A stretch of DNA of 49,821 nt from CAYFZR01 sp046760505 [NCBI: Candidatus Hydrothermarchaeota archaeon] (GTDB lineage: Archaea > CAYFZR01). Where the stretch lies: NCBI GenBank assembly GCA_046760505.1, contig JBHIEG010000014.1, positions 1 to 49,821 on the forward strand. The letters run 5' to 3'. Shown here in pieces: positions 3,931 through 25,452 of this stretch; the first letter of the stretch is position 1; each line of letters begins with the position of its first letter. The position numbers and the translations under genes were made by a program. A model generated the notes under the pieces. It ran no database searches and was not told the origin of the DNA. It saw nothing but the letters and a program-made list of their open reading frames with translations.

Positions 3931-5147
3931 AGGAATTGGACCACCTTAAAATGTTGAAGGAAGGGAAAATAAAGACCCATGAACTGGAAAAGTTTGTATC
4001 TCCTAGTGAAGCAATCAGCATTAGAAGAAAATATCTTGAAGACACATTGAATGTAGATCTTACAGATATTGGTAGTTTTATAATAGATCCTGAAATTGCT
4101 TCTCGTTATAACATTGAGCATATGATAGGGGCCATACAGGTTCCTCTAGGGATAGCAGGACCCGTAAGAATAAACGGAGATTATGCAAAGGGAGAATTCT
4201 ATCTACCTTTGGCAACGACAGAAGGAGCATTAGTCGCTTCTGTAAACAGAGGTTGCAGCATAATTAATGCTTCTGGCGGCTCCTATACAAAAATTCTTGA
4301 GGACAAAATGACTAGGGCCCCTGTTTTTCAGGCTAAAAACATTCATGAGGCTATTAAATTTAAGGAATGGATATACAGAAACTTTGAGAAATTAAAGGAG
4401 GAGGCAGAGAGCACAACAAGGCACGGAGAACTAAAAGACGTGCGTGCATGGTTGGTCGGGAGGACTGTTTTTCTAAGGTTTTCATTTGACACAAAGGATG
4501 CCATGGGAATGAACATGGTAACCATTGCTACGGATAAGTGCGTTGATTTCGTTGAAAAAAATTTCCCAATCAAATGTATATCTCTCTCTGGAAATCTCTG
4601 TGTTGACAAAAAACCATCAGCCCTAAATCTAATCCTCGGAAGAGGTAAAACAATCATAGCAGAGACATTTATTCCTGAAGAAACGATTAAGGATGGACTA
4701 AATACTTCTTCTAATTTGTTGGTAGAGGTAAACTATAGAAAAAACCTCATAGGTTCTAGTCTGGCATCTTCTTATGGGTTCAACGCACACTTTGCCAATA
4801 TCATTGCGGCCATGTTTCTGGCAACAGGGCAGGACATCGCTCAGGTTGTTGAGGGCAGCCACGGTTTTACTCTCGTTGAAAAAGAGGAAAAAGGAGTTTA
4901 TTTTTCTGTTACGCTGCCGGCGCTAGAAGTAGGCACGGTGGGAGGAGGTACTAGATTAGAGACTCAGAGAAACTCCCTGAAGATACTCGGAATAAAGGAA
5001 GGATCCGCAGGTAAAAATGCTAAAAAATTAGCAGAAATAATTGCTACCGGAGTATTGGCAGGAGAGATATCGTTAATTGGAGCATTAGCTGCAAAAGAAC
5101 TTGCTAGCTCTCACAAGCATTTTGCGAGAAGAGTAGAGGAGGGATAG
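3927..5147 (+). CDS. hmgA: 3-hydroxy-3-methylglutaryl-CoA reductase (class I)
   Basis: This enzyme reduces HMG-CoA to mevalonate with NADPH, the committed step of archaeal isoprenoid lipid synthesis. All four catalytic landmarks of class I enzymes are visible: Glu in TTEGALVAS (about residue 99), Lys in VDKKPSA, Asp in TGQDIAQ and His in SSHKHF near the C-terminus. The signature DAMGMNMV is at 191-198, and GTVGGGTRLETQ is the conserved glycine-rich loop. The length of 406 residues is normal for archaeal soluble enzymes without a membrane domain. The GTG start overlaps the stop of the preceding regulator, and the next gene begins 1 base after its stop, suggesting one operon. Confidence 0.95.
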   Translation: MKELDHLKMLKEGKIKTHELEKFVSPSEAISIRRKYLEDTLNVDLTDIGSFIIDPEIASRYNIEHMIGAIQVPLGIAGPVRINGDYAKGEFYLPLATTEGALVASVNRGCSIINASGGSYTKILEDKMTRAPVFQAKNIHEAIKFKEWIYRNFEKLKEEAESTTRHGELKDVRAWLVGRTVFLRFSFDTKDAMGMNMVTIATDKCVDFVEKNFPIKCISLSGNLCVDKKPSALNLILGRGKTIIAETFIPEETIKDGLNTSSNLLVEVNYRKNLIGSSLASSYGFNAHFANIIAAMFLATGQDIAQVVEGSHGFTLVEKEEKGVYFSVTLPALEVGTVGGGTRLETQRNSLKILGIKEGSAGKNAKKLAEIIATGVLAGEISLIGALAAKELASSHKHFARRVEEG

Positions 5148-13700: not shown

Positions 13701-13724
13701 AATAATATTATGATATCTGCTTCT

Positions 13725-13730
13725 GGAGGT
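13725..13730 (+). promoter_or_regulatory. Ribosome binding site deciding the GTG start at 13737
   Basis: GGAGGT is followed by 6 bases and then GTG at 13737. It touches the in-frame ATG at 13731 and lies downstream of the ATG at 13710, so both ATGs are poor candidates. Confidence 0.6.
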
Positions 13731-13736
13731 ATGTTT

Positions 13737-15227
13737 GTGAAGAGCATAGAAGAGATTAATGAAAGGATAAAAAAGGGCGAAGCAGTAGTTGTCACTGCTG
13801 AAGAAATGATAGATATAGTGGAAGATAAAGGAGTAAAAGAAGCAGCTAAAGAAGTAGACGTCGTAACAACAGGTACATTTGGAATGATGTGCAGTTCGGG
13901 AGTATTCTTTAACTTTGGTCATGCAGATCCTCCAATAAAGATGACAAGAGTTTGGATGAATAACGTTGAGGCTTATACCGGTGTAGCAGCAGTAGATGCT
14001 TATCTAGGGGTTACACAGATTAGCACTGATAGAGGGATAGAGTATGGGGGCGCGCATGTTATAGAAGATCTTTTAAATGGGAAAGAAATAGAACTTAGAG
14101 CAGAAGCATACGGCACCGATTGTTATCCAAGAAAGGTATTAGAAACGATGATTTCTTTAGAAGAGGTAAATCAGGCGGTAATGGTAAATCCAAGAAACGC
14201 CTATCAAAAATACGTTGCCGCTACAAACTCTACTGATGAAAAACTCTATACATACATGGGCGTTCTCCTGCCCAACTATGGTAACGTCACCTACTCCGGA
14301 GCTGGACAGTTAGCCCCTCTTCCAAATGATCCGAATTACGAAACGATTGGAATAGGAACCAGAATATTTCTTGGAGGAGCAGTAGGTTATATAATAGGAG
14401 AGGGAACCCAGCACAATCCTCAGAACTTTTTGGGAACTTTGATGGTCAGAGGAAACCTGAAAGAAATGAGCACAGATTTTTTAAAAGCCGCAGTAATGGA
14501 GAAATACGGTCCAACATTGTTTGTTGGGCTAGGAATTCCTATACCAATAATTAACGAGAATTTAGCAGAAAAAACAGCCATCAGAGACTCTGATATAAAT
14601 GTAAATGTCCTGGATTATGGAGTTCCAAGAAGAGATAGGCCTGTTGTAAAAGAAACGAACTACGAGGAACTTAAAAAGGGCACCATAGAGATAAATGGAA
14701 GAGAAGTAAAAACATCACCTCTCTCAAGCTATAGGAAGGCGAGAATAATAGCTGAAGAGCTAAAGTCATGGATAGAAAATAAAAAATTCTTAATTTCACT
14801 TCCTGCAGAAAGATTGCCTACTAAAAGACTTTTTAAGCCTATGGCAATCAAGAAACCACTTCCCACCGTTAGAAATGTCATGAGAAAGGAGTTTGTGATG
14901 TGTACGCCTCAAAACGATATAAAGGAAGTCGCAAGGATAATAGTAGAGAAGGGTTTTGATCACATACCAGTGGTAGAAGAAGGAAACAAACTGGTTGGAG
15001 TAGTTACATCTTGGGATATAGCAAATGCCGTAGCTAGTGACAAAAAGAGCCTCTCTGACATTATGACAACCAAGGTTATTACTGCTAGGGAAGAAGAATC
15101 CATAGATGTGGTGGCGAGAAGGTTGAGTCGACATGACATTTCAGGAGCCCCGGTAGTAGATCCACAAAACAGAGTTATTGGGATAATTACAACCGATGAT
15201 ATCGCAAGATGGCTGGGGGTAATTTGA
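13737..15227 (+). CDS. L-aspartate semialdehyde sulfurtransferase (DUF39) with two CBS domains
   Basis: The first ~375 residues are the DUF39 homocysteine-biosynthesis family (MA1821 type in Methanosarcina), which converts aspartate semialdehyde and sulfide-derived sulfur to homocysteine in anaerobes. Conserved cysteines are visible in GMMCSSGVFFNFGHADPP and GTDCYPRKVL, and NPRNAYQKYVAATNS is typical. The C-terminal ~125 residues are two CBS domains (VMRKEFVMCTPQNDIKEVAR; LSDIMTTKVITAREEESIDV), as in one group of these enzymes, perhaps sensing adenosyl compounds. The start is taken as GTG (VKSIEEINERIKKGEAVVV) because GGAGGT sits 6 bases before it; upstream ATGs at 13710 and 13731 are also in frame. 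The NIL-ferredoxin partner overlaps the stop. Confidence 0.9.
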   Translation: MKSIEEINERIKKGEAVVVTAEEMIDIVEDKGVKEAAKEVDVVTTGTFGMMCSSGVFFNFGHADPPIKMTRVWMNNVEAYTGVAAVDAYLGVTQISTDRGIEYGGAHVIEDLLNGKEIELRAEAYGTDCYPRKVLETMISLEEVNQAVMVNPRNAYQKYVAATNSTDEKLYTYMGVLLPNYGNVTYSGAGQLAPLPNDPNYETIGIGTRIFLGGAVGYIIGEGTQHNPQNFLGTLMVRGNLKEMSTDFLKAAVMEKYGPTLFVGLGIPIPIINENLAEKTAIRDSDINVNVLDYGVPRRDRPVVKETNYEELKKGTIEINGREVKTSPLSSYRKARIIAEELKSWIENKKFLISLPAERLPTKRLFKPMAIKKPLPTVRNVMRKEFVMCTPQNDIKEVARIIVEKGFDHIPVVEEGNKLVGVVTSWDIANAVASDKKSLSDIMTTKVITAREEESIDVVARRLSRHDISGAPVVDPQNRVIGIITTDDIARWLGVI

Positions 15228-15625
15228 TGAAAGTTTACCTGTATTTCCCACCAAGAGTAGTTGGCGAGCCCATAATATCTTCAGTAATTATCGAAACCGG
15301 AAAACGGATAAACATACTTAGAGCGGATATAAATTCTAGTCACGGGGAGATTGTGGCAGACATAGAGGGCAGGGAAGATGAGGTTAATGAAATTATAGAG
15401 AAACTCAGGGATAGAGGTGTTGAGGTTAGCGTCTTAGAAAGAGTAATCGAAAAGGACGATGATATATGTGTTGATTGTGGAGCATGCATTTCTTTATGCC
15501 CAGTTAATGCAATATACATAGATAAGGAGTGGAAAGTTGTTGTAGAGGGGGATAAATGTATAGGATGTAAGACATGCGTGGATGCCTGTCCTGTTAGGGC
15601 AATAAGCATGACAGAGGCGTATTAG
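15227..15625 (+). CDS. NIL-domain ferredoxin, partner of the homocysteine-forming sulfurtransferase
   Basis: The N-terminal ~75 residues form a NIL domain (VYLYFPPRVVGEPIISSVII, REDEVNEIIEKLRDRGVEV). The C-terminal half holds two 4Fe-4S clusters of the CxxCxxCxxxCP type (CVDCGACISLCP and CIGCKTCVDACP). This is the MA1822-type partner that is thought to supply electrons or sulfide chemistry for homocysteine formation. The start ATG at 15227 overlaps the stop of the sulfurtransferase (TGATG) with GGGGGT 6 bases upstream. The upstream in-frame ATG at 15209 would add MAGGNL and is less likely. Confidence 0.92.
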   Translation: MKVYLYFPPRVVGEPIISSVIIETGKRINILRADINSSHGEIVADIEGREDEVNEIIEKLRDRGVEVSVLERVIEKDDDICVDCGACISLCPVNAIYIDKEWKVVVEGDKCIGCKTCVDACPVRAISMTEAY

Positions 15626-15627
15626 AG

Positions 15628-16128
15628 TTATTGCTTAATCCTGACGATCAGTTCCTTTCTTTTTACCGGAACCAATTTTTTTATCTCTACCTTTGAATCC
15701 TTGTTCAATTCGAATTTATCCATTCCTATGTCTGGAGTCTTTCCATCAACCTCGTATATATAAAAACCTTCTTCCCCTTCGATAGAGGCTAAAAATTCCC
15801 TATCTCCAACTTTTCTCAGTTTGATGCCGGAAACCTTCCTTAATGCATCTAAAACACTTGTACCTTTGGGAACCTCCACGTGAACGGACTCTGCGAACAT
15901 ATCAAGGGCCTGGTACTGCTTGCTCAAGTTAGCTCTGATGACATGACTTCTTCCAAATTTCTTTCTTTCCACCAGACCAGCCTTTTCTAGTACATCTACA
16001 TGTTTAGCCGCAACTGGAACAGATATACCGATCTCGTTTGCTAATCCAGTAATATGCATTTCTTTCCTTGCTAAGATACCCAGCATCTTCCTTCTGGTTT
16101 CGTTACTTAAGGCCTTGAGCAAATTCAT
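15628..16128 (-). CDS. ArsR-type regulator fused to a DUF4430-like domain; candidate cobalt/cobalamin regulator
   Basis: Counting from an upstream in-frame TTG (16158), residues 11-80 are an ArsR-type winged helix (LLKALSNETRRKMLGILARK; VPVAAKHVDVLEKAGLVERK). Residues 92-168 match the DUF4430 pattern, the beta-grasp domain that caps the ligand in transcobalamin-like proteins: VEVPKGTSVLDALRKVSG, then FYIYEVDGKTPD, then KFELNKDSKVEIKKL. The classic metal cysteines of ArsR are absent. The gene is divergent from cbiM, head of the cobalt uptake and corrin synthesis operon, so corrinoid-dependent repression of that operon is a specific hypothesis. The start is taken as ATG 16128, which has GGAAGGTG 5 bases upstream. 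Confidence 0.82.
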   Translation of the reverse strand: MNLLKALSNETRRKMLGILARKEMHITGLANEIGISVPVAAKHVDVLEKAGLVERKKFGRSHVIRANLSKQYQALDMFAESVHVEVPKGTSVLDALRKVSGIKLRKVGDREFLASIEGEEGFYIYEVDGKTPDIGMDKFELNKDSKVEIKKLVPVKRKELIVRIKQ

Positions 16129-16171
16129 GCCTACACCTTCCGTTACCCTTTCTAACAACTTTGAGGAAATC

Positions 16172-16208
16172 CAGATATGTTATGGGAATTACTAATAAAT
16201 ATTATCTG
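16172..16208. promoter_or_regulatory. Candidate operator: inverted repeat CAGATA...TATCTG
   Basis: CAGATA at 16172-16177 and TATCTG at 16203-16208 form a perfect 6-base inverted repeat with a 25-base spacer, between the divergent ArsR-type gene and cbiM and just upstream of the cbiM TATA box. Such a repeat could arise by chance. Confidence 0.3.
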
Positions 16209-16214
16209 TTTCAG

Positions 16215-16226
16215 TATATATAAATA
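16215..16226 (+). promoter_or_regulatory. TATA box of the cobalt/cobalamin operon
   Basis: TATATATAAATA is centred about 26 bases before the TTG start of cbiM at 16246, the usual distance to an archaeal transcription start, so the operon transcript is probably leaderless at its first gene. Confidence 0.6.
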
Positions 16227-16245
16227 CAGGGATTTGTAGAAGAGT

Positions 16246-16923
16246 TTGGGGATCAAACTGCACATATCAGATGGTATTCTATCACCGGTATGGGTATTAA
16301 TTTGGTTTTCGGTAGCGTTTCTCTTTGTTGCAATTGGCATAACCCATATAAGGAAAAAAACAAAGGAAAACCCATCGTACATGCCCATGTTGGCTCTCAT
16401 GGGAGCCTCAATTTTCGTGATTTCTGTTTGGCACATACCTGTACCTGTGACAGGCTCATGCTCGCACCCAATAGGCACACCTATGAGCGCGATTATAGTT
16501 GGCCCTTTTCAAACTGTTGTTTTAAGCTTTATAGCCTTGTTCTTCCATATTTTCTTGGGTCACGGTGGACTGACCACCTTGGGGGCTAACACGTTTTCGA
16601 TGGGCATCGTTGGAACTTTCACAGGATATTTAACCTATAAAGCCTTTAGAAAACTTGGTGCATCTATCTGGCTATCCGCTGGTATAGCCGGATTCATTGG
16701 AGACGTGCTAACGTACATTACCACTGCATTTGAATTAGCCATATCATTGCACCCTGAATCCTTCATGTATTACTGGAAAATATTCAGCATAGGTTTTGTG
16801 CCTACTCAGATCCCCCTTGCTTTATTAGAGTTTGCTTTTACCAGTGCAGTTATGAGATACGTCTCCGATTTGAGACCGGAATTCTTGATAGAAAAGGAGA
16901 TATTGGAGGTAAATTATGAATGA
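16246..16923 (+). CDS. cbiM: Cobalt ECF transporter substrate-binding component CbiM
   Basis: CbiM is the metal-binding S-component of the energy-coupling-factor cobalt importer. The N-terminus LHISDGILSPVW matches the family's M-H-I-x-D-G start, whose His and amino terminus bind Co2+. Later conserved motifs include HIPVPVTGSCSHPIGTPMSA, LFFHIFLGHGGLTTLGANTF and GFIGDVLTYITTA. There are about seven membrane segments in 225 residues. The start is TTG at 16246, placing three residues (MGIK) before Leu-His; the codon just before His is CTG, an unusual arrangement. The TATA box spacing supports leaderless translation. The stop overlaps cbiN by 8 bases. Confidence 0.93.
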   Translation: MGIKLHISDGILSPVWVLIWFSVAFLFVAIGITHIRKKTKENPSYMPMLALMGASIFVISVWHIPVPVTGSCSHPIGTPMSAIIVGPFQTVVLSFIALFFHIFLGHGGLTTLGANTFSMGIVGTFTGYLTYKAFRKLGASIWLSAGIAGFIGDVLTYITTAFELAISLHPESFMYYWKIFSIGFVPTQIPLALLEFAFTSAVMRYVSDLRPEFLIEKEILEVNYE

Positions 16924-17197
16924 TTCTTTTGTCTTAAAGGTACTTCTGCTAATGGTATTAAGCGTCCTAGGTATCATAGTATCCGCCTACTATGGCTCTA
17001 AGGTAGGAGAGTTGCAGGGTACAGATGCATTGGTGGAGGATTTGGCCATGAAGTCGGCCGGAAAAAAAGCAGTCACCTTGATAGAACTCAATGAAACAGG
17101 CGAGTATATAGGATTCACTCTAGTCGGGATAGTAAGTGGATTTACAGTGGGGTACCTTATACCCAGCCTATTCCCCCAAAAAATTAAAAAAGGTTAA
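16916..17197 (+). CDS. cbiN: Cobalt ECF transporter auxiliary protein CbiN
   Basis: The 93-residue protein has an N-terminal span (6-25), an extracellular loop with the CbiN-typical GTDALVEDLA, and a C-terminal span (about 62-84). CbiN helps load Co2+ onto CbiM. It overlaps cbiM by 8 bases. One base separates its stop from the start of a previously unlisted 37-residue membrane ORF. Confidence 0.9.
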   Translation: MNDSFVLKVLLLMVLSVLGIIVSAYYGSKVGELQGTDALVEDLAMKSAGKKAVTLIELNETGEYIGFTLVGIVSGFTVGYLIPSLFPQKIKKG

Positions 17198-17313: not shown

Positions 17314-18072
17314 ATGTATGAATTGAGATTTTCATATGTAGAGGGAGACTCCATCCTTCATAGGCTGGAGGAGCGCGTAAAAACCATATGTGCTTTTACC
17401 ATTATCTTAGGCATAACCCTGCTTAAGAATTTTTATACCGTTTTCTCAATACTCGTAATCTCGTTTCTCTTAATGATTTATGTGAAAGCACCCGTATCAG
17501 TTATTTTGAAAAGATTTCGCTATCCTTTTTTTATTGCATCATTCATTATGCTAATACAGTTCTTTACCTATGGATCCAGTGAATTGGTGACTCTGGGCTT
17601 TTTAAGGATTTATGAAGAAGGTCTTTCATTCGGCATACTTCTTTTCCTTCGGATAATGGCAGCAGTCTCTGTTCTTAACCTTTTGATATTGGTAACTCCT
17701 GTTAATAAAATTTTAGGCTCTCTTAAATGGTTTAGGGTTCCAAAGATATTATTAGACATATCAATGCTAATGTTGAGGTATATATTTGTCCTTTCTGAAG
17801 AAAGCACGAGAATATATTATGCACAGCAGTCTAGAGGTGGATACACAGGTAACTACAGGAAAAAGATAGAAAATTTTGGTGTTTTAGGAGGCATGGTTAT
17901 ACTTAGATCGCTAGATAGAGTCACGAATGTCTACAAGGCGATGATTTCGAGAGGATACAACGAAAACATAGGATATTATTCCGAGAGCAATCTATCAAAA
18001 AGAGATCTCCTTTTAGGTATTTCGATCGTTCTTTTGATGATTTTTTTCGTTACACTAGAATATACTCTATAG
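17314..18072 (+). CDS. cbiQ: Cobalt ECF transporter T-component CbiQ
   Basis: CbiQ couples the ATPase CbiO to CbiM. The 252 residues contain about five or six membrane helices, and the coupling helices carry the family's Ala-Arg-Gly-like motif (YYAQQSRGGYTG near 170 and YKAMISRGYNE near 207). GAGGAGAT lies 3 bases before the ATG, inside the end of the small upstream ORF. The start of cbiO is 12 bases after the stop. Confidence 0.92.
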   Translation: MYELRFSYVEGDSILHRLEERVKTICAFTIILGITLLKNFYTVFSILVISFLLMIYVKAPVSVILKRFRYPFFIASFIMLIQFFTYGSSELVTLGFLRIYEEGLSFGILLFLRIMAAVSVLNLLILVTPVNKILGSLKWFRVPKILLDISMLMLRYIFVLSEESTRIYYAQQSRGGYTGNYRKKIENFGVLGGMVILRSLDRVTNVYKAMISRGYNENIGYYSESNLSKRDLLLGISIVLLMIFFVTLEYTL

Positions 18073-18083
18073 AAAGTGATGAT

Positions 18084-18896
18084 ATGATTCGAGTTAATAA
18101 CATATCCTACAGGTACCCTGACGGAACCCAAGCATTGAAGAATGTTAGTATTTATGCAGAAAAAGGAGAATGCATTGCCATTCTCGGCCCAAATGGCTCC
18201 GGAAAGACTACACTACTACATCACTTAAATGGTCTTTTGTCTCCCATATCTGGTGAGATTTATATAAATGGGGAAAGAATAGAGGGCAAAAATCTAGATA
18301 AAATAAGGAGAAAGGTTGGTTTACTGTTCCAGAATCCCGATGATCAGTTGTTTGCTCCAACAGTAAGAGAGGACGTTGCATTTGGTCCAAAGAATCTGGA
18401 ACTAGAAAGAGATGAAATAAAAAAAAGGGTTGAAAAGAGTTTAAGGCTTGTCCACATTGAACATCTTGGAAACAAGCCAATAAATAGTTTAAGCTATGGA
18501 GAAAAGAAAAGAGTTGCTATAGCAGGAGTTTTAGCAATGAATCCTGATATTCTTGTTTTTGACGAGCCTATCTCTGCTTTAGACCCAGTAATGTCTTCCG
18601 AAATGATAGAATTGATCTTAAAGTTGAAGAAAGAGTTGAAAGTTACTTTGGTAATAGCTACCCATGACGTAGATTTCGTTCCGCTGTGTGCTGATCGCAT
18701 ATATGTATTGAACAAAGGTGAAATAGTGGCTGAAGGTACTCCAAAGGAAGTTTTCAGAAACAAAGAAGTAATTACTCACTGTGGTCTAAGACTTCCAATT
18801 ATATCTCAACTCTTTGAATCAATTAACAGTGGAGAAATTCCTTTAACCATAGAAGAAGCAAAAAATTTGCTAAGGGATATGAAATGGAAGGCATAG
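18084..18896 (+). CDS. cbiO: Cobalt ECF transporter ATPase CbiO
   Basis: ABC ATPase of 270 residues. Walker A is GPNGSGKTTLL (34-44), the Q-loop is LLFQNPDDQLFAPTVREDVA, which is typical of ECF ATPases, the signature is LSYGEKKRVAIAG, Walker B is ILVFDEP and the switch His is in IATHDVDF. It powers CbiMNQ cobalt uptake. It overlaps cbiX by 13 bases. Confidence 0.95.
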   Translation: MIRVNNISYRYPDGTQALKNVSIYAEKGECIAILGPNGSGKTTLLHHLNGLLSPISGEIYINGERIEGKNLDKIRRKVGLLFQNPDDQLFAPTVREDVAFGPKNLELERDEIKKRVEKSLRLVHIEHLGNKPINSLSYGEKKRVAIAGVLAMNPDILVFDEPISALDPVMSSEMIELILKLKKELKVTLVIATHDVDFVPLCADRIYVLNKGEIVAEGTPKEVFRNKEVITHCGLRLPIISQLFESINSGEIPLTIEEAKNLLRDMKWKA

Positions 18897-19270
18897 TAAT
18901 CGTTGCTCATGGTAGTAGAGTTCCTGAGAGCAAGAATGTCTATGAAGAGATAGCAAAGAAGGTGAGAAATAAAATCAATGCTGAGGTAGAAATCGGATAC
19001 ATGACTCATCTAAAACCAACTCCTGTGGAGGCAATTAACTCACTCGTAGAGAGGGGTTTTAAGAAAATAGTGGTGATTCCCTTGTTCATTTCTCCCGGCA
19101 TTCATGTTATTGAAGATATTCCGAATTTAATCGGCATATCCGATGAAGAGAAATTAAAGTTACCAGGAGACGTGGAAATTTATTATGAAAGGAACATCGG
19201 AGATGATGATAGACTGGTTGAAATTCTGGTTGATAGAGCTAAAGAGGGATTAAATGCGCTCAAAAGATAA
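18884..19270 (+). CDS. cbiX: Sirohydrochlorin cobaltochelatase, short archaeal form CbiX(S)
   Basis: The 128-residue protein has the CbiX start IVIVAHGSRVPESKNVYEEI with the metal-site His (VAHGS) and the second His pair in IPLFISPGIHVIEDI. The short length means it acts as a homodimer, each subunit equivalent to half of a bacterial chelatase. It inserts Co2+ into sirohydrochlorin, the entry to anaerobic B12 synthesis. In methanogens the same type (CfbA) inserts Ni2+ for F430; here the context favours cobalt. It overlaps both neighbours. Confidence 0.93.
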   Translation: MEGIVIVAHGSRVPESKNVYEEIAKKVRNKINAEVEIGYMTHLKPTPVEAINSLVERGFKKIVVIPLFISPGIHVIEDIPNLIGISDEEKLKLPGDVEIYYERNIGDDDRLVEILVDRAKEGLNALKR

Positions 19271-19883
19271 AATAGAAGGAGATAAAATAGAAGAAGAAAG
19301 TCTGAAAATAATCAGAAACAAGCTTGATGGTTTCCCCTATCCTGAGAGGGAGGTTATAGCTAGAGCAATTCATGCCACCGCTGATTTTGATTTCGCCAAT
19401 CTGTTAATTTTCAAGAATGATCCTATAAAAAAGGGCGTTAAAATGATAAGAGAAGGTAAAGATGTGGTTACAGATGTTAACATGGTAAGATCAGGCATAA
19501 ATCACAGATCTTTATCTAAATTCGGCGGTAACGTTAAGTGTTTTATAGACGATGAAAATGTTTTTAGACTTTCAGAAAAAGAGGGTATTACCAGATCTTC
19601 CGCATCCTTTCGCCTTTTCAAGGAAGAAATAGAGGATACCATAGTAGTTGTTGGAATCGCCCCCACCGCTATATTTGAACTATGCGATCTAATTGAAGAA
19701 GGGATCAAGCCAGGAATCATTATTGCTACTGCTTTAGGTTTTGTCGGAGCTAAAGAATCAAAAGAAAAAATCTTAGAGTACGATATCCCGAGTATAGTAG
19801 TCAGGGGACATAAAGGAGGAAGCCCAGTAGCAGTAGCGATAGCAAACTCATTAATTAGACTTGCTGAATCAGGCTGGCAGTAA
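19254..19883 (+). CDS. cbiC: Cobalt-precorrin-8 methylmutase CbiC
   Basis: CbiC moves the C11 methyl group to C12 to give cobyrinate. The catalytic His is in REVIARAIHATADFDF, and the family motifs TDVNMVRSGI, VGIAPTAIFEL and IVVRGHKGGSPVAVAIANSL are all present in 209 residues. The start lies 17 bases inside cbiX. The stop is 1 base before the preferred cbiD ATG. Confidence 0.94.
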   Translation: MRSKDKIEGDKIEEESLKIIRNKLDGFPYPEREVIARAIHATADFDFANLLIFKNDPIKKGVKMIREGKDVVTDVNMVRSGINHRSLSKFGGNVKCFIDDENVFRLSEKEGITRSSASFRLFKEEIEDTIVVVGIAPTAIFELCDLIEEGIKPGIIIATALGFVGAKESKEKILEYDIPSIVVRGHKGGSPVAVAIANSLIRLAESGWQ

Positions 19884-19884
19884 A

Positions 19885-21006
19885 ATGATTAAATATATTG
19901 AGAAAAATGGACAATTGTTGAGAATGGGTTTTACAACGGGCACGTGCGCCGCTGCAGCAGCAAAAGCAGCTGTTAAAATGCTTTTCTCCGGAAGGGAAAT
20001 AAAGAAAGTAGAAATAACTCTGCCCATAAATGAGAAGGTTGAGCTGGATATAGTGGATTTTAGAATGAATGATGAAGAAGTCTCTTGCTGCATAAAAAAA
20101 GATGCAGGAGACGATCCTGATGTAACAGATGGAGCTAAGATATGTGCTAAGGCTAAAAAATCTGGCTTTAATGGAATAAAGATTAAGGGCGGTGATGGAG
20201 TAGGAAGAGTAACGAAGAAAGGATTGCCGGTAAAAGTTGGGGAATGCGCTATAAATCCAGTACCTAGGGAAATGATTGTGAAAGGAGTAAGAGAAGTATT
20301 GCCAAAGAATGAAGGAGTTGAGATAGAGATTTTTGTTCCGGGTGGGAAGGAGTTGGCTAAAAAAACAATGAACGAAAAACTTGGAATCATAGGTGGAATC
20401 TCAATACTGGGTACCACAGGCATTGTTGAGCCTAAATCTTTAGATGCCTTCAAAAATTCATTGACCTTACAGATAGATGTTGCAAACTCAGCCGGAATAA
20501 AAGAGGTGGTTTTGACCCCTGGAAGGTTTGGTGAGAAAAGAGCGATGAGAAAAGGCATTCCAGAGGATGCCATCGTACAGACAGGTAACTTCATAGGTTT
20601 TATGCTAAAGGAATGCGTTAGAAAAGGGATGAAAAAAGGTCTTTTGTTCGGACACATAGGCAAGTTGGTTAAGGTCTCAGCAGGGATATTCGATACTCAT
20701 AGTAGTGTAGCGGATGCCAGAATGGAGACTATGGCTGCTTATGCATCGTTGTGTGGAGCAAGCAGGGATATTGTTAACGATATACTAAACTCAAATACCA
20801 CGGAAACCGCCTTGGATATTCTCAAACAAAATGGATTGACTCAAGTCTTCGATATTTTGGCTGAAAGAGCAAGCCTCAGAGCCATGGATTACGTGGATGG
20901 AGAGATGAAGATAGGTACTATCATGATATCAAAGGAAGGTATCGTGGTTGGTAGCGACAAAAATGCAGGAAGATCGAAATGGGCAAAATATTTGTTGTGG
21001 GAGTAG
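19885..21006 (+). CDS. cbiD: Cobalt-precorrin-5B C1-methyltransferase CbiD
   Basis: CbiD methylates C1 using SAM in the anaerobic route. The N-terminus LRMGFTTGTCAAAAAKAA is diagnostic, followed by IKKDAGDDPDVTDGAKI, GDGVGRVTKKGLPVKVGECAINPVP (read as two joined motifs) and FGHIGKLVKVSAGIFDTHS in the C-terminal half. The start is ATG 19885 (MIKYIEKNG), 1 base after cbiC ends; an in-frame TTG at 19861 inside cbiC would add eight residues. Length 373. It overlaps cbiE by 28 bases. Confidence 0.94.
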   Translation: MIKYIEKNGQLLRMGFTTGTCAAAAAKAAVKMLFSGREIKKVEITLPINEKVELDIVDFRMNDEEVSCCIKKDAGDDPDVTDGAKICAKAKKSGFNGIKIKGGDGVGRVTKKGLPVKVGECAINPVPREMIVKGVREVLPKNEGVEIEIFVPGGKELAKKTMNEKLGIIGGISILGTTGIVEPKSLDAFKNSLTLQIDVANSAGIKEVVLTPGRFGEKRAMRKGIPEDAIVQTGNFIGFMLKECVRKGMKKGLLFGHIGKLVKVSAGIFDTHSSVADARMETMAAYASLCGASRDIVNDILNSNTTETALDILKQNGLTQVFDILAERASLRAMDYVDGEMKIGTIMISKEGIVVGSDKNAGRSKWAKYLLWE

Positions 21007-21590
21007 GTCCCGGGTCAGATGAGTTCTTGACTCCCTGTGCAAGAAAAATAATAGATAAGGCAGACATCTTAGTTGGTGGGAATAAAATACTGTCTTCATT
21101 TAAGAATAAGAGAAAAAAGGTAATAGATAAGGATCTTGAAGAAATCATAGGATTTATAGGTGAACATAAAGAAAAGAATATCGCAGTCTTAACTTCTGGA
21201 GATCCTGGTTTTTACAGCATCCTCGCATTGATTTTGAAAAAATTTCCGAAAGAAGAAATCGAAGTGATCCCGGGCATAAGCTCTATGCAGCTCTGCTTTG
21301 CAAAAATAAAAGAAATTTGGCATGATGCAAAGTTTATCAGTTTACATGGGAGAAATATGGATATATTGGTTGAAGAAATAAAAGATCATCCTAAGATAGC
21401 CATCCTGACAGACCCATCTAATCCTCCCAACAAGATTGCAGAACTATTAATTCAGAACAATATACCATGCGAAAAAATTGCGGTATGTGAGAATTTATCT
21501 TTATCTTCAGAAAAAGTCATTCTAACAAGCGTTGAGGAGGTTTTCAGAAAAAAATTTTCAGGAAACTGTGTTGTGGTGATATTCAGATGA
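20979..21590 (+). CDS. cbiE: Cobalt-precorrin-7 C5-methyltransferase CbiE
   Basis: A SAM-dependent tetrapyrrole methyltransferase of 203 residues. The N-terminal loop IFVVGVGPGSDEFLTPCA and the second glycine-rich loop LTSGDPGFYSI identify the superfamily, and position before cbiT identifies CbiE. CbiE and CbiT together replace aerobic CobL. Its ATG lies 28 bases inside cbiD and its stop overlaps cbiT by 4 bases. Confidence 0.92.
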   Translation: MGKIFVVGVGPGSDEFLTPCARKIIDKADILVGGNKILSSFKNKRKKVIDKDLEEIIGFIGEHKEKNIAVLTSGDPGFYSILALILKKFPKEEIEVIPGISSMQLCFAKIKEIWHDAKFISLHGRNMDILVEEIKDHPKIAILTDPSNPPNKIAELLIQNNIPCEKIAVCENLSLSSEKVILTSVEEVFRKKFSGNCVVVIFR

Positions 21591-22180
21591 AATGGAAATT
21601 CGTTGTTCCGGGAATACCAGAGGAATACTTCATATCGGAAGGAAATTCAATGACAAAGGAAGAGATAAGAACGATAACCCTCTCCAAGTCAAGGATCAAA
21701 GAAGAAAGCACGGTCTACGATATAGGCGCAGGAAACGGATGTATATCCATTGAGGCTGCGTTGTTGGCAAAGAGAGGGAAGATTTTTTCAATCGAAAAAA
21801 AACCAAGCAGAATAGAGATAATTAAAGCGAACGCTAAGAGATTTAATGTAAAGAATATGGAGGTTATAGAGGGAGAAGCTCCATATGCCTTAGAAAATTT
21901 ACCTGAAGCTGACAGGATAATAATAGGTGGAACAGGGGGGAAACTGAGAGAAATTTTATTCAAATGTAATGAAAAGCTGAAGGACGAAGGAATCGTAGTA
22001 ATAAATGCGGTAACGATAGATACATTAAAAGATGCGGTTTCATCCTTGGAAGATCTAAAATTTAACTTCAATATCACACAGGTTTCTATAAATAGAGCCG
22101 AAAAAATAGGTAAAAATAAAATAATGAAGGCATTGAATCCTGTTTGGATTATTGATGCCAGAAAGGAGGAAAAAGATTGA
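21587..22180 (+). CDS. cbiT: Cobalt-precorrin-6B C15-methyltransferase (decarboxylating) CbiT
   Basis: Rossmann-type methyltransferase with the SAM loop VYDIGAGNGCISIEAAL (near residue 45) and the acidic residue in FSIEKKPSR. It methylates C15 and removes the acetate carboxyl at C12. The start GIPEEYFISEGNSMTKEEIRTI is typical of CbiT. The length is 197 residues. The ATGA overlap with cbiE and 4-base overlap with cbiL indicate one translational unit. Confidence 0.93.
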   Translation: MKWKFVVPGIPEEYFISEGNSMTKEEIRTITLSKSRIKEESTVYDIGAGNGCISIEAALLAKRGKIFSIEKKPSRIEIIKANAKRFNVKNMEVIEGEAPYALENLPEADRIIIGGTGGKLREILFKCNEKLKDEGIVVINAVTIDTLKDAVSSLEDLKFNFNITQVSINRAEKIGKNKIMKALNPVWIIDARKEEKD

Positions 22181-22881
22181 GACTCGGAAAATTATACGGT
22201 ATTGGAGTAGGCCCAGGGGATCCTGAACTCATAACTATGAAGGCCATTAAAATTTTAAAAGAGGTTGATGTGGTTTTAACTCCTAAATCAGGAGAGAATA
22301 AAGATAGCATGGCATTCTCTATCGTGAAAAAAATATTAAGTAAGGATTTCAAAATCATAGATCCTGTTTTTCCAATGATTAAAGATGAAGAGATCCTTGA
22401 AAAACACTGGAATAATACTGTGGACTTGATCTTTTCTGAACTAAAGGAAGGAAAGAACGTTGCATTCATAACAATTGGAGATCCATTGTTTTACAGTACA
22501 TATTCATACGTAGTAAGAAAAATGAAAGAAAGGTATCCAGAGGTAGAAATAGAGACCGTTCCGGGTATAACTTCTCTTTCGGCATGTTTAGCCGAATTGA
22601 ACATTCCTTTAGGAGAGAAAGATGAGAGAATAGGCATATTTCCTGCCAGTTATGGCTTAGAGAAGTTAGAAGAACTTGCTAATATATTTGATTCCCTAGT
22701 ACTGATGAAGGTATCTAAAAATTTTGACGAGATAGTAAGGACATTAGAAAAAACAGGTCTCAAAAATAAGTCAATATTTGTTAGCAGATGCGGTAGTGAA
22801 GACTTTGTCTCATCCGACCTCGACTCTATGGTTGGTAAGGAAATAGATTACTTCTCTATGATAATAATAAAAGGAAAATAA
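22177..22881 (+). CDS. cbiL: Cobalt-precorrin-2 C20-methyltransferase CbiL
   Basis: Tetrapyrrole methyltransferase of 234 residues with LYGIGVGPGDPELITMKAIK at the N-terminus, the CbiL-type LTPKSGENKDSMAFSI, and ITIGDPLFYSTYSYV as the second loop. It is the first methylation after cobalt insertion. The start is TTG overlapping the cbiT stop. Confidence 0.92.
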   Translation: MRLGKLYGIGVGPGDPELITMKAIKILKEVDVVLTPKSGENKDSMAFSIVKKILSKDFKIIDPVFPMIKDEEILEKHWNNTVDLIFSELKEGKNVAFITIGDPLFYSTYSYVVRKMKERYPEVEIETVPGITSLSACLAELNIPLGEKDERIGIFPASYGLEKLEELANIFDSLVLMKVSKNFDEIVRTLEKTGLKNKSIFVSRCGSEDFVSSDLDSMVGKEIDYFSMIIIKGK

Positions 22882-22897
22882 AATAAAAGGGATAGGG

Positions 22898-23650
22898 ATG
22901 AAGGTTTATTTTATCGGCGCAGGCCCGGGAGATCCTGATCTCTTAACAATCAAGGCTAAAAAGGTCATTGAGGAATCAGACGTAATAATATATGCTGGCT
23001 CATTGATAAATCCGGAGATACTTAAGTACGCAAAAAAAGATGCGGATTTATTTGATAGTTCTGGCATGACGCTTGAAGAAATAAAAGAAGTTATCTATGA
23101 AGCTGTAAATAATAAAAAAACGGTTGCTAGGATACACAGTGGAGATCCAAGTATATACGGTGCAATTCAAGAACAGATTGACTTCTTGGAAGAAAAAAAA
23201 ATTGAGTTTGAAATCATCCCTGGAGTGAGTTCTTTTCTTTCCGCAGCAGCTTCTTTAAAAAGAGAGTACACAATCCCAGAGGTCTCCCAAACACTTATTA
23301 TAACAAGAATTTCAGGAAGGACAAAAGTTCCTGAAAAAGAAAGTTTGAGGGAACTATCGAGACATAAAGCGAGCATGTGCATCTTTCTAAGTGCCCATAT
23401 GATTGACGAAGTGGTAAATGAACTCATAAATTTCTACGATGAAAATACTCCAGTTGCGGTAGTTTATAAGGCTTCTTTACCAGATGAAAAGATAGTCCAT
23501 GGTAACTTAGGAAATATAGCAGAAAAGGTAAAAAATGAGCGTATAGAAAGAAAGGCATTGATTTTGGTTGGAGATTTTTTAATGTCTAAGGGAAAGAGAT
23601 CAAAACTCTATGATAAAGATTTTACCCACAGTTTCAGGGATAATAAATGA
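22898..23650 (+). CDS. cbiF: Cobalt-precorrin-4 C11-methyltransferase CbiF
   Basis: The 250-residue protein has VYFIGAGPGDPDLLTIKAKK, VIIYAGSLINPEILKYA and RIHSGDPSIYGAIQEQ, the last two being specific to CbiF/CobM. It methylates C11 before ring contraction is completed by CbiG. It begins 16 bases after cbiL, the largest gap in the corrin block, with the purine-rich AAAAGGGATAGGG as a ribosome site. The stop overlaps cbiGH. Confidence 0.93.
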   Translation: MKVYFIGAGPGDPDLLTIKAKKVIEESDVIIYAGSLINPEILKYAKKDADLFDSSGMTLEEIKEVIYEAVNNKKTVARIHSGDPSIYGAIQEQIDFLEEKKIEFEIIPGVSSFLSAAASLKREYTIPEVSQTLIITRISGRTKVPEKESLRELSRHKASMCIFLSAHMIDEVVNELINFYDENTPVAVVYKASLPDEKIVHGNLGNIAEKVKNERIERKALILVGDFLMSKGKRSKLYDKDFTHSFRDNK

Positions 23651-25452
23651 AAATAGCCATTATAACCCTTACAAAAGATGGCATGGATCTTGGGAGGAAA
23701 ATATCTAAGGCATTGAGAGAACATGAAACGAATTTATTTGTAAACAAGAGATTCCAAAATGATGAAGCAAGAGCCATTGAGACTCCACTTAGCGAATTTT
23801 TAGGGAAAATTTTCCCGGATTATGATGCTCTGGTTTTCGTTATGGCACTGGGAATCGTTGTAAGAGTGATTTCAAACCATATAAAAAATAAAAGGACAGA
23901 TCCCTCTATAGTGGTGGTTGATGAAAAAGGTCAGTTCGCCATAAGTCTCCTGTCTGGGCATCATGGGGCAAATGAACTTGCAAGATTGATAGCTAAGAGA
24001 ATTAATGCCAAAGAAGTAATTACAACTGCTTCGGAGATTAAAAAAAAGCCATCTGTAGAATCAATTGCAAAAAGGTTTAATCTAGTAGCTTCTGATGTGA
24101 AGGATTCAAAGCTTGTAAATTCATCGATTTTAAACGATGAAATGGTAGGAATATTTACAGAATTTGAAATAGACCTTGATTTATCTGAAAACATTGTTTT
24201 AAATGATTTAACAGACTTAGAATCAAAAAAAGACAATTTTGAGTCCTTTATATTTATAACAAATAAAGCAATAGAAAAATTAGATAAACTAGAAAAACCA
24301 CTCGTAATTCTAAGGCCTAGGAACCTTTTGGCTGGAATCGGGTTTAAGAAAGGGACCAGTAAAGAAGATATACTGGAAGCAATAAGGTACTCTTTCCTAA
24401 AAGCAGGACTCAGCATCGAAAGTTTGAAGGCTATAGCGACACTAGATTTTAAAGCGAATGAAGATTGTATCCTCGAAGCTGCGAGAGAATTAAACACTCA
24501 TGTCTTGGGAATCAGTATAGAGGAAGTTAAAAGAGTTGAGAGAAATTATGAAATCTCTGAGCATGTAAGAGAAAAAATTGGAGTGGGAGCCGTAAGTGAG
24601 CCAATTGCAGTAATTGCCGGAAATAACGCAAATTTGATCCAAAGAAAAGTTAAATTTAAAGGAGTTACGGTAGCAATTGCAGAGGAGAAAATAATGGAGA
24701 AAGGAACCATATTTCTAGTGGGAATCGGCCCGGGAAGCAAAGATCATATGACCTTTAGAGCGTATGATGCCATAAAGGGCGCAGACGTTGTAATAGGTTA
24801 TGATAGATATTTGGAATTAATCAAGGATTTAACATCAGGAAAAGAAGTTATTTCAAAAGGTATGAGAAAAGAGGTTGAGAGAGCAAAAATCGCTGTTGAT
24901 AAAGCTTTGATGGGTAAAAAAGTTGTTCTTGTGAGCGGAGGAGATCCAGGGATATATGGAATGGCTAGCGTTTTATTTGAATACTTAGAAGAAAGGAGCA
25001 TTGATCTTCACGTTGAAGTAGTTCCCGGAGTAACAGCTGCAATTGCTGCATCAGCATGTTTAGGCTCTCCTTTAAGCCATGATTTTGCCGTAATAAGTTT
25101 AAGCGATTTCTTGACCCCGTGGAAAATTATTGAAAAAAGGTTGGAAAGCGCTGCCAAGGCAGATTTTATAATTGTTCTATATAATCCGAAAAGTAAAGAA
25201 AGAGAATGGCAAATTGAAAGAGCAATTAATATCTTAATGAAATATAAAAAACCTGAAACTCCAGTAGGAATTGTAAAAAAAGCAATGAGAGAGAATGAAG
25301 AGATTAAAATAACAACATTGAAAGAAATGTTAACTCATGAAATTGATATGCAAACCACGATCATCATAGGCAATTCAGAAACATTCGCATTCAATGATAG
25401 GATTATAACGCCAAGAGGTTATCGCTCAAAATACGATTTTAAGAGTAAATAA
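23647..25452 (+). CDS. cbiGH: Fused CbiG (cobalt-precorrin-5A hydrolase) and CbiH (C17-methyltransferase)
   Basis: Residues 1 to about 345 are CbiG: an N-terminal domain with ALVFVMALGIVVRVISNHI and VVVDEKGQFAISLLSGHHGGA-like sequence (here SGHHGANELARLIA), and a C-terminal CbiG domain with LLAGIGFKKGTSKEDILEAI. Residues about 350-601 are CbiH, with IFLVGIGPGSKDHMTFRA, VVIGYDRYLEL and VSGGDPGIYGMASV. CbiH methylates C17 with ring contraction and CbiG opens the lactone, so the fusion joins nearby steps. An in-frame ATG at 24694 (residue 350) has GAGGAG 6 bases upstream, so free CbiH could also be made. CbiJ, CbiA and CbiP are not in the window. Confidence 0.93.
   Translation: MKIAIITLTKDGMDLGRKISKALREHETNLFVNKRFQNDEARAIETPLSEFLGKIFPDYDALVFVMALGIVVRVISNHIKNKRTDPSIVVVDEKGQFAISLLSGHHGANELARLIAKRINAKEVITTASEIKKKPSVESIAKRFNLVASDVKDSKLVNSSILNDEMVGIFTEFEIDLDLSENIVLNDLTDLESKKDNFESFIFITNKAIEKLDKLEKPLVILRPRNLLAGIGFKKGTSKEDILEAIRYSFLKAGLSIESLKAIATLDFKANEDCILEAARELNTHVLGISIEEVKRVERNYEISEHVREKIGVGAVSEPIAVIAGNNANLIQRKVKFKGVTVAIAEEKIMEKGTIFLVGIGPGSKDHMTFRAYDAIKGADVVIGYDRYLELIKDLTSGKEVISKGMRKEVERAKIAVDKALMGKKVVLVSGGDPGIYGMASVLFEYLEERSIDLHVEVVPGVTAAIAASACLGSPLSHDFAVISLSDFLTPWKIIEKRLESAAKADFIIVLYNPKSKEREWQIERAINILMKYKKPETPVGIVKKAMRENEEIKITTLKEMLTHEIDMQTTIIIGNSETFAFNDRIITPRGYRSKYDFKSK

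Follow-up and report, generated by a model that had tools for sequence, protein, structure and literature searches.

Which signal is read by a DNA-binding protein that ends in a transcobalamin-like domain, and which genes answer to it, is the question raised by a gene in the 49,821-nucleotide stretch of archaeal DNA analysed here (the window). The gene lies on the minus strand at 15631..16128, with its stop codon at 15628-15630 (ORF 15628-16128), and encodes a one-component regulator of 166 amino acids from an ATG at 16128; an alternative TTG at 16158 would add 10 residues. A sequence-only reading had proposed that this protein fuses an ArsR winged helix to a DUF4430 domain and senses a corrinoid, thereby controlling the divergent cobalt and B12 genes. 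Our analysis confirms part of what was observed there and supports part of its interpretation, and the protein probably regulates cobalt uptake and B12-sparing genes in response to a corrinoid. The N-terminal winged helix (residues 1-76, 15901..16128, minus strand) matches two ArsR-type HTH profiles, PF12840 (4.4e-9, 36.6 bits, cut-off 27) and PF01022 (1.7e-8, 34.7 bits, cut-off 22), and the protein also matches PF14478, the DUF4430 profile (9.3e-6, 26.4 bits, curated cut-off 23.8), so the fusion itself is borne out. The last 90 amino acids on their own (residues 77-166, 15631..15900, minus strand) reach 28.1 bits against PF14478; two orthologues fall under the cut-off of 23.8, at 22.3 and 14.1 bits. 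No NCBIfam model matched the regulator above its own cut-off, and the metalloregulator model NF033788 gave 53.9 bits, below its cut-off of 55.

The predicted structure of the regulator bears on what the C-terminal domain might hold. The whole-protein model (pLDDT 81, pTM 0.50) has the ArsR fold, with a Z of 14.4 to the ArsR repressor 6j05 over 80 aligned residues, and the C-terminal domain was also modelled alone from 17 sequences (pLDDT about 89.3, pTM 0.78). When 995 chains were aligned to this second model, the top 13 entries were cobalamin carriers, every one, with Z values for their beta-domains of 9.5 (haptocorrin), 8.7-9.3 (transcobalamin), and 8.9 (intrinsic factor) over 78 residues at an rmsd of 2.1-2.3; 3u7z followed at Z 8.4, and all other entries were at 5.5 or below, the next unrelated one at 5.5. 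Foldseek by itself placed the carrier family near the top, weakly (best beta-domain matches E 0.17-0.29), and the C-terminal sequence profile found no match in the PDB below E 0.2. The part of PMC1796856 available to us gives the hallmarks of the DUF4430/transcobalamin-like SLBB clade as a beta-hairpin inserted after a helix and two conserved glycines. In the C-terminal model, strands 26-31 and 34-40 form such a hairpin after helix 16-21, and glycines 13 and 53 of the domain are invariant and are read here as the conserved pair. The modelled fold thus agrees with the proposal of a beta-grasp of the transcobalamin type; a carrier-like fold alone does not imply corrinoid binding.

The fusion and the idea that it senses B12 were already published in 2007, when Burroughs, Balaji, Iyer, and Aravind (PMC1796856), in the part of their paper available to us, described an ArsR-SLBB fusion of Methanosarcina and predicted that it acts as a one-component factor whose signal is B12, a B12 precursor, or some other soluble ligand. 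The window gene is a further member of this family, and the additions made here are its occurrence in 109 of 392 genomes, a 22-bp palindrome, and the link of that palindrome to corrinoid-type targets. A scan of genome contigs returned 23 full-length relatives at 45-56% identity, along with one partial match to the HTH; the titles of the 23 name Methanosarcina, Methanosarcinales, Methanophagales, Methanoperedens, Methanomicrobia, or something less exact, with one Nitrosotalea. The family is clearly separated, as 22 genomes gave 24 full-length matches of at least 247 bits and the next best match scored 36.4 bits. The 392 genomes belong to one archaeal phylum; counted at E 1e-20 or better, 82 of the 109 have one match and 27 have two to five, with at most three full-length copies in the multi-match genomes and the remainder partial. 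In a tree, the window protein joins the proteins of loci L089 and L021 on long branches, which may make this a false grouping. Throughout, a genome is called Methanosarcina-type if it clusters with loci bearing the title Methanosarcina or was included alongside them.

In the window, 12 cobalt/corrin genes, headed by cbiM, run divergently from the regulator, an arrangement that had been recognised from the sequence. The cbiM gene (16246..16923, plus strand; listed start TTG) encodes a TGSCSHP motif and matches PF01891 (4.3e-53, 180.6 bits) and NF006184 (231.4, over the cut-off of 180), and it falls under the cut-off of TIGR00123 cbiM (163.7 against 184.15). Behind it on the plus strand lie a small membrane protein placed as CbiN by position, with no family match above cut-off (16916..17197), cbiQ (17314..18072; TIGR02454, 162.6 bits, cut-off 111.8), the cbiO ATPase gene (18084..18896; TIGR01166, 226.8 bits, cut-off 211.8), and, in order, genes for CbiX (or CfbA), CbiC, CbiD, CbiE, CbiT, CbiL, CbiF, and a CbiG-CbiH fusion (18884..25452). 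The CbiX product (18884-19270) scores 109 bits against CfbA, the nickel chelatase of F430 synthesis (cut-off 120), and its gene lies among the corrin genes. Convergent with the regulator, at 13710-15625, are an HcyBio enzyme with CBS domains (PF01837, 494.8 bits) and then a NIL-domain 4Fe-4S ferredoxin, which we take to resemble an archaeal homocysteine-from-sulfide pair. B12 riboswitches are the bacterial counterpart of control by such a regulator; an Rfam scan of the window gave no match at gathering score, and hence no B12 riboswitch by that test, which supports the earlier suggestion of protein-based control in place of a riboswitch.

The 117-bp gap between the two divergent genes (16129..16245) holds TATATATAAATA at 16215..16226 on the plus strand, the likely cbiM TATA box, as had been suggested. 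A CAGATA/TATCTG inverted repeat (16172-16177 and 16203-16208) that had been pointed to in the same gap is indeed present, but we reject it as an operator since it is at chance level: when the gap was shuffled 500 times, 72% of the copies had an inverted repeat of 6 bp with a loop no longer than 40. The best candidates in the window for the family palindrome described below are weak. One, ATGTTATGGGAATTACTAATAA (16177..16198; 2.2 bits), has the family spacing, and the other, CCGTTACCCTTTCTAACAACTT (16140..16161; 2.8 bits), has half-sites 3 bp too close; scores as high occur in 604 and 517, respectively, of 7003 240-bp windows in relatives' loci, or 7-9%.

Gene order around the relatives varies. 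Stretches fetched around the family matches, some of them short, represent 137 distinct instances, and in 102 of these no CbiM/NikM, CbiQ, CobN, CbtA, or DUF2162 gene was found in the stretch. The sequence-only reading had named homologues lying mostly away from cobalt/cobalamin genes as evidence against itself, and taken literally this is what was found; neighbourhood alone would not carry the claim, it is rejected here as evidence for a B12 role, and the link lies instead in sites acting in trans. In Methanosarcina-type loci, the regulator is divergent from genes for DUF2162, an ExbB-type channel, DUF2149, and a CobN-type chelatase (Pfam assignments from one locus), and its divergent neighbour in two Methanoperedens-like loci is CbtA. 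CbiM or CbiQ is found near the regulator in several separate branches, and in other large groups the regulator adjoins an ADP-ribosylglycohydrolase, a CofE-like gene (by our reading), or TIM-barrel and radical-SAM genes. Genomes with extra copies (L137, L143, L145, L148, L149, L150) have some of these near CbiQ/CbiM; at L148 a gene read as a NicO-like transporter is also close, and another copy lies in a locus with radical-SAM and his-like genes.

Relatives' loci and corrinoid-type target genes have in common a 22-bp palindrome, TTGTTAYC-N6-GRTAACAA, which was first seen near the DUF2162 promoter in the aligned divergent regions of 15 Methanosarcina-type loci. Genome-wide counts were set aside as evidence: with up to two mismatches, 12 Methanosarcina-type genomes contain 134 matches (backward control, 96), and a looser consensus with at most one mismatch found 34 sites against 65 for the backward control in 23 other genomes, which is no excess. 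The neighbourhoods of 20 of the latter sites include four with nrdD, two with cbiM, and 14 with neither. Among the matches listed, which cover seven of the 12 genomes, a site with at most one mismatch precedes nrdD and nrdG in all seven, with a glutaredoxin gene between the site and nrdD where the ORF list shows it (Pfam for one locus). Among the same matches, a site with at most one mismatch lies 408-515 bp upstream of the regulator in six of seven, the site in G173 having two mismatches, and in the five genomes fetched these upstream sites fall in the gap where the divergent DUF2162-CobN genes begin. A further five one-mismatch sites were found, four in G386 and one in G384, and the two that were fetched do not precede such genes. 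At locus L162 of genome G173, very large genes stand in tandem, and a palindrome lies ahead of each stretch (at 4488, 9932, and 15905), scoring 23.0 bits before a DUF2162-like ORF, 15.7 before a CobN gene, and 26.1 before a gene for 1373 amino acids. One of the large genes is a second CobN (949.5 bits), and the other two ORFs encode 1749 and 1373 amino acids.

Further elements were noted beside the palindrome. Upstream of the regulator in L009, L013, L019, and other Methanosarcina-type loci, two are conserved: AAGTAAATTTG and TTTACTTG, separated by about 50-60 bp, the second immediately preceding the regulator's TATA-like sequence, and TTTAACA...TGTTAAC, which sits mid-gap. The AAGTAAATTTG...TTTACTTG pair was seen at the Methanosarcina-type regulator promoter only. 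At the nrdD promoters of L212, L213, L201, and L175, extra half-sites can be seen by eye after the main palindrome, as if several dimers were to bind side by side.

A position matrix trained on 18 Methanosarcina-type sites was then applied elsewhere. Within -200 to +40 of the regulator start, 34 of 137 instances carry a site of at least 9 bits, against 52 of 6211 background windows, and none of 200 column-permuted matrices reached 34 (mean 2.4, maximum 21). When upstream sequences were grouped into 21 clusters, seven had a site; permuted matrices gave 1.6 on average and at most seven. Across clusters these sequence comparisons give moderate independent support for a site at the regulator start. 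Some clades, among them the Methanoperedens-like ones, have the site across the start codon (19.8 and 18.9 bits in the two CbtA loci); in ANME-1-type loci and a number of others it falls in sequence that appears not to code. Where sites run into the beginning of the coding sequence, as several do, they could be due to protein conservation. The GTTACC-type palindrome near regulators was recovered solely by the matrix, as a scan for the strict pattern within 300 bp, which covered all but 15 instances, found none bar one falsely positioned match (L096).

Sites were also compared at genes that lie elsewhere in the genome. NrdD, the class III ribonucleotide reductase, which does not need B12, is present in 35 of 35 regulator-bearing genomes searched and in 30 of 45 regulator-lacking ones. 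Upstream of nrdD, a site of at least 6 bits occurs in 23 of the 30 loci retrieved from regulator-bearing genomes and in six of 30 from regulator-lacking genomes (Fisher 2.3e-5, kinship ignored), the latter fraction becoming 6/23 once seven loci with fewer than 100 upstream bases are dropped, and a site of at least 10 bits occurs in 16/30 and 3/30, respectively. In 16 nrdD sites, the flanks are 30-33% identical and the half-sites 73%, a value inflated because the sites were picked by score. The B12-dependent NrdJ is found in 22 of 40 genomes searched, including all eight of the Methanosarcina type. Outside these and five ANME-like genomes, it occurs in nine of 22 regulator-bearing genomes, and since the other 13 are without it, B12 sparing does not explain control of nrdD there. 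Promoters of PF01891 transporters have a site in 13 of 30 regulator-bearing and two of 30 regulator-lacking genomes when one locus was taken per genome (p 0.002, kinship ignored). Regulator-bearing genomes share the site at cobalt- and B12-related genes.

The fusion might instead sense another tetrapyrrole or cofactor, such as heme, F430 or a precursor of it, or siroheme, and control tetrapyrrole chelation and anaerobic metabolism generally. A main target in Methanosarcina-type genomes is the set of CobN/HmuS-like chelatase genes, and a 2025 paper, PMC12583661, as far as we had access to it, reports that bacterial HmuS takes iron from heme and calls the role of the archaeal homologues unclear. 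In the available part of their paper, Burroughs et al. (PMC1796856) also remark that archaea carrying these domains are often B12 producers, for which the ligand could be a different one, and the window CbiX falls only just under the CfbA cut-off. We nevertheless consider this account unlikely. When the PF01891 loci of regulator-bearing genomes were split by a sequence motif of our own choosing, the site was present at 13 of 23 CbiM-type loci and at none of the seven others (p 0.010, kinship ignored), four of which have a NikM fragment as their best match. This suggests that the site tracks uptake of cobalt and not of nickel. CbiM-type loci in regulator-lacking genomes have it in none of seven (p 0.010 against 13/23, kinship ignored). 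CbtA and the corrin genes of the window likewise indicate cobalt and B12, and the best structural matches of the sensor domain are cobalamin carriers.

The palindrome could also belong to another regulator, with the ArsR-DUF4430 gene being one target only and its product acting elsewhere. Five genomes in which no DUF4430 regulator was found (G027, G037, G046, G057, G065) keep a related site before nrdD, at 9.1-12.7 bits, G057 also having one before a NikM-type gene, and in a sixth regulator-lacking genome, G030, the nrdD site is likewise at least 6 bits. In four of the five (L256, L258, L259, L262), a conserved, unrelated gene for 194-197 amino acids is divergent from nrdD (grx-nrdD), one scanned copy of which gave no Pfam match. 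Another factor can use the site in the five exceptions, or the fusion was lost or missed there, and the 194-197 amino acid protein might be a substitute regulator. That the palindrome is generally another protein's is improbable, however, as the site recurs at the start of the regulator itself in several clades whose neighbouring genes differ and as nrdD and cbiM sites are commoner with the fusion than without it. A direct cobalt sensor of the SmtB/ArsR kind would suit the ArsR fold and the cobalt transporter targets but is very improbable, because cysteine is absent from the window protein, confirming the missing metal cysteines already noticed from its sequence, and from 76 of 138 family rows, and because the invariant residues outside the HTH are concentrated in the sensor domain's EEGFYIYEV-G stretch, whose EEG...YE[VI] pattern is kept in 94 of the 138 rows.

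For the corrinoid-responsive regulator that we favour, the following mechanism is plausible. The ArsR winged helix would sit as a dimer on the 22-bp palindrome, while the fused DUF4430 domain would hold a corrinoid or corrin intermediate, the gain or loss of which would alter affinity for DNA. At low corrinoid, cobalt uptake, corrin synthesis, CobN-type chelation, and NrdD would be expected to rise. In the relatives, the targets would comprise the regulator's own promoter, CbiMNQO cobalt uptake, CbtA, CobN-like chelatases with an ExbB-type motor, and the B12-independent NrdD. Sites over regulator start codons suggest self-repression, whereas those at DUF2162, cbiM, and nrdD are far enough upstream that activation is also possible. 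In the window, the divergent genes from cbiM to cbiH would most likely be under the regulator, with a protein in the role that a B12 riboswitch has in bacteria.

We would more tentatively extend this reading to the family as a whole, which is possibly, although not yet probably, a general B12 regulator of methane-cycling archaea. It would govern cobalt uptake and the CobN-type chelatases that have a proton-driven motor, and would also decide whether DNA precursors are made by the B12-dependent or the B12-independent route. Corrinoid dependence is heavy in methanogens and methane-oxidising archaea. In a literature search on narrow terms, with most subscription journals outside its reach, neither the palindrome nor its targets were met, nor, other than the 2007 prediction, a named protein controlling the cobalt and B12 genes of methanogens or methane oxidisers. 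Since the protein is named, the 22-bp palindrome defined, and the list of targets short, the proposal can be tested directly in Methanosarcina. The shared site also provides a functional lead for the archaeal CobN/HmuS homologues, which would have a corrinoid or cobalt role if the proposal is true; in that case, the domain that transports B12 in human blood would also have been used to build a B12-sensing factor.

Comparison with known systems places the regulator among several partial parallels. A 'CBL-box' was reportedly predicted by Rodionov et al. in 2003 for a hypothetical archaeal B12 regulator; by this description it is likewise a predicted operator of archaeal B12 genes without a known protein. 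CarH has a MerR-type HTH and a B12-binding fold unlike DUF4430, and it serves light sensing rather than B12 homeostasis. As an AdoCbl-dependent repressor, it is likewise a protein transcription factor that reads B12, according to the part of PMC8123684 available to us. The beta-domains of transcobalamin, haptocorrin, and intrinsic factor resemble the regulator domain in being a beta-grasp with a hairpin after the helix (Z 8.7-9.5), at 8-19% identity; in the carriers, however, an alpha/alpha barrel also holds B12, whereas the regulator is without the barrel and has a winged helix fused instead. The Methanosarcina ArsR-SLBB protein (PMC1796856) has the same architecture as the window regulator, and the same prediction was made for it. 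The part of that paper available to us names no operator or target genes for it, whereas the member in the window adjoins a full run of cobalt and corrin genes.
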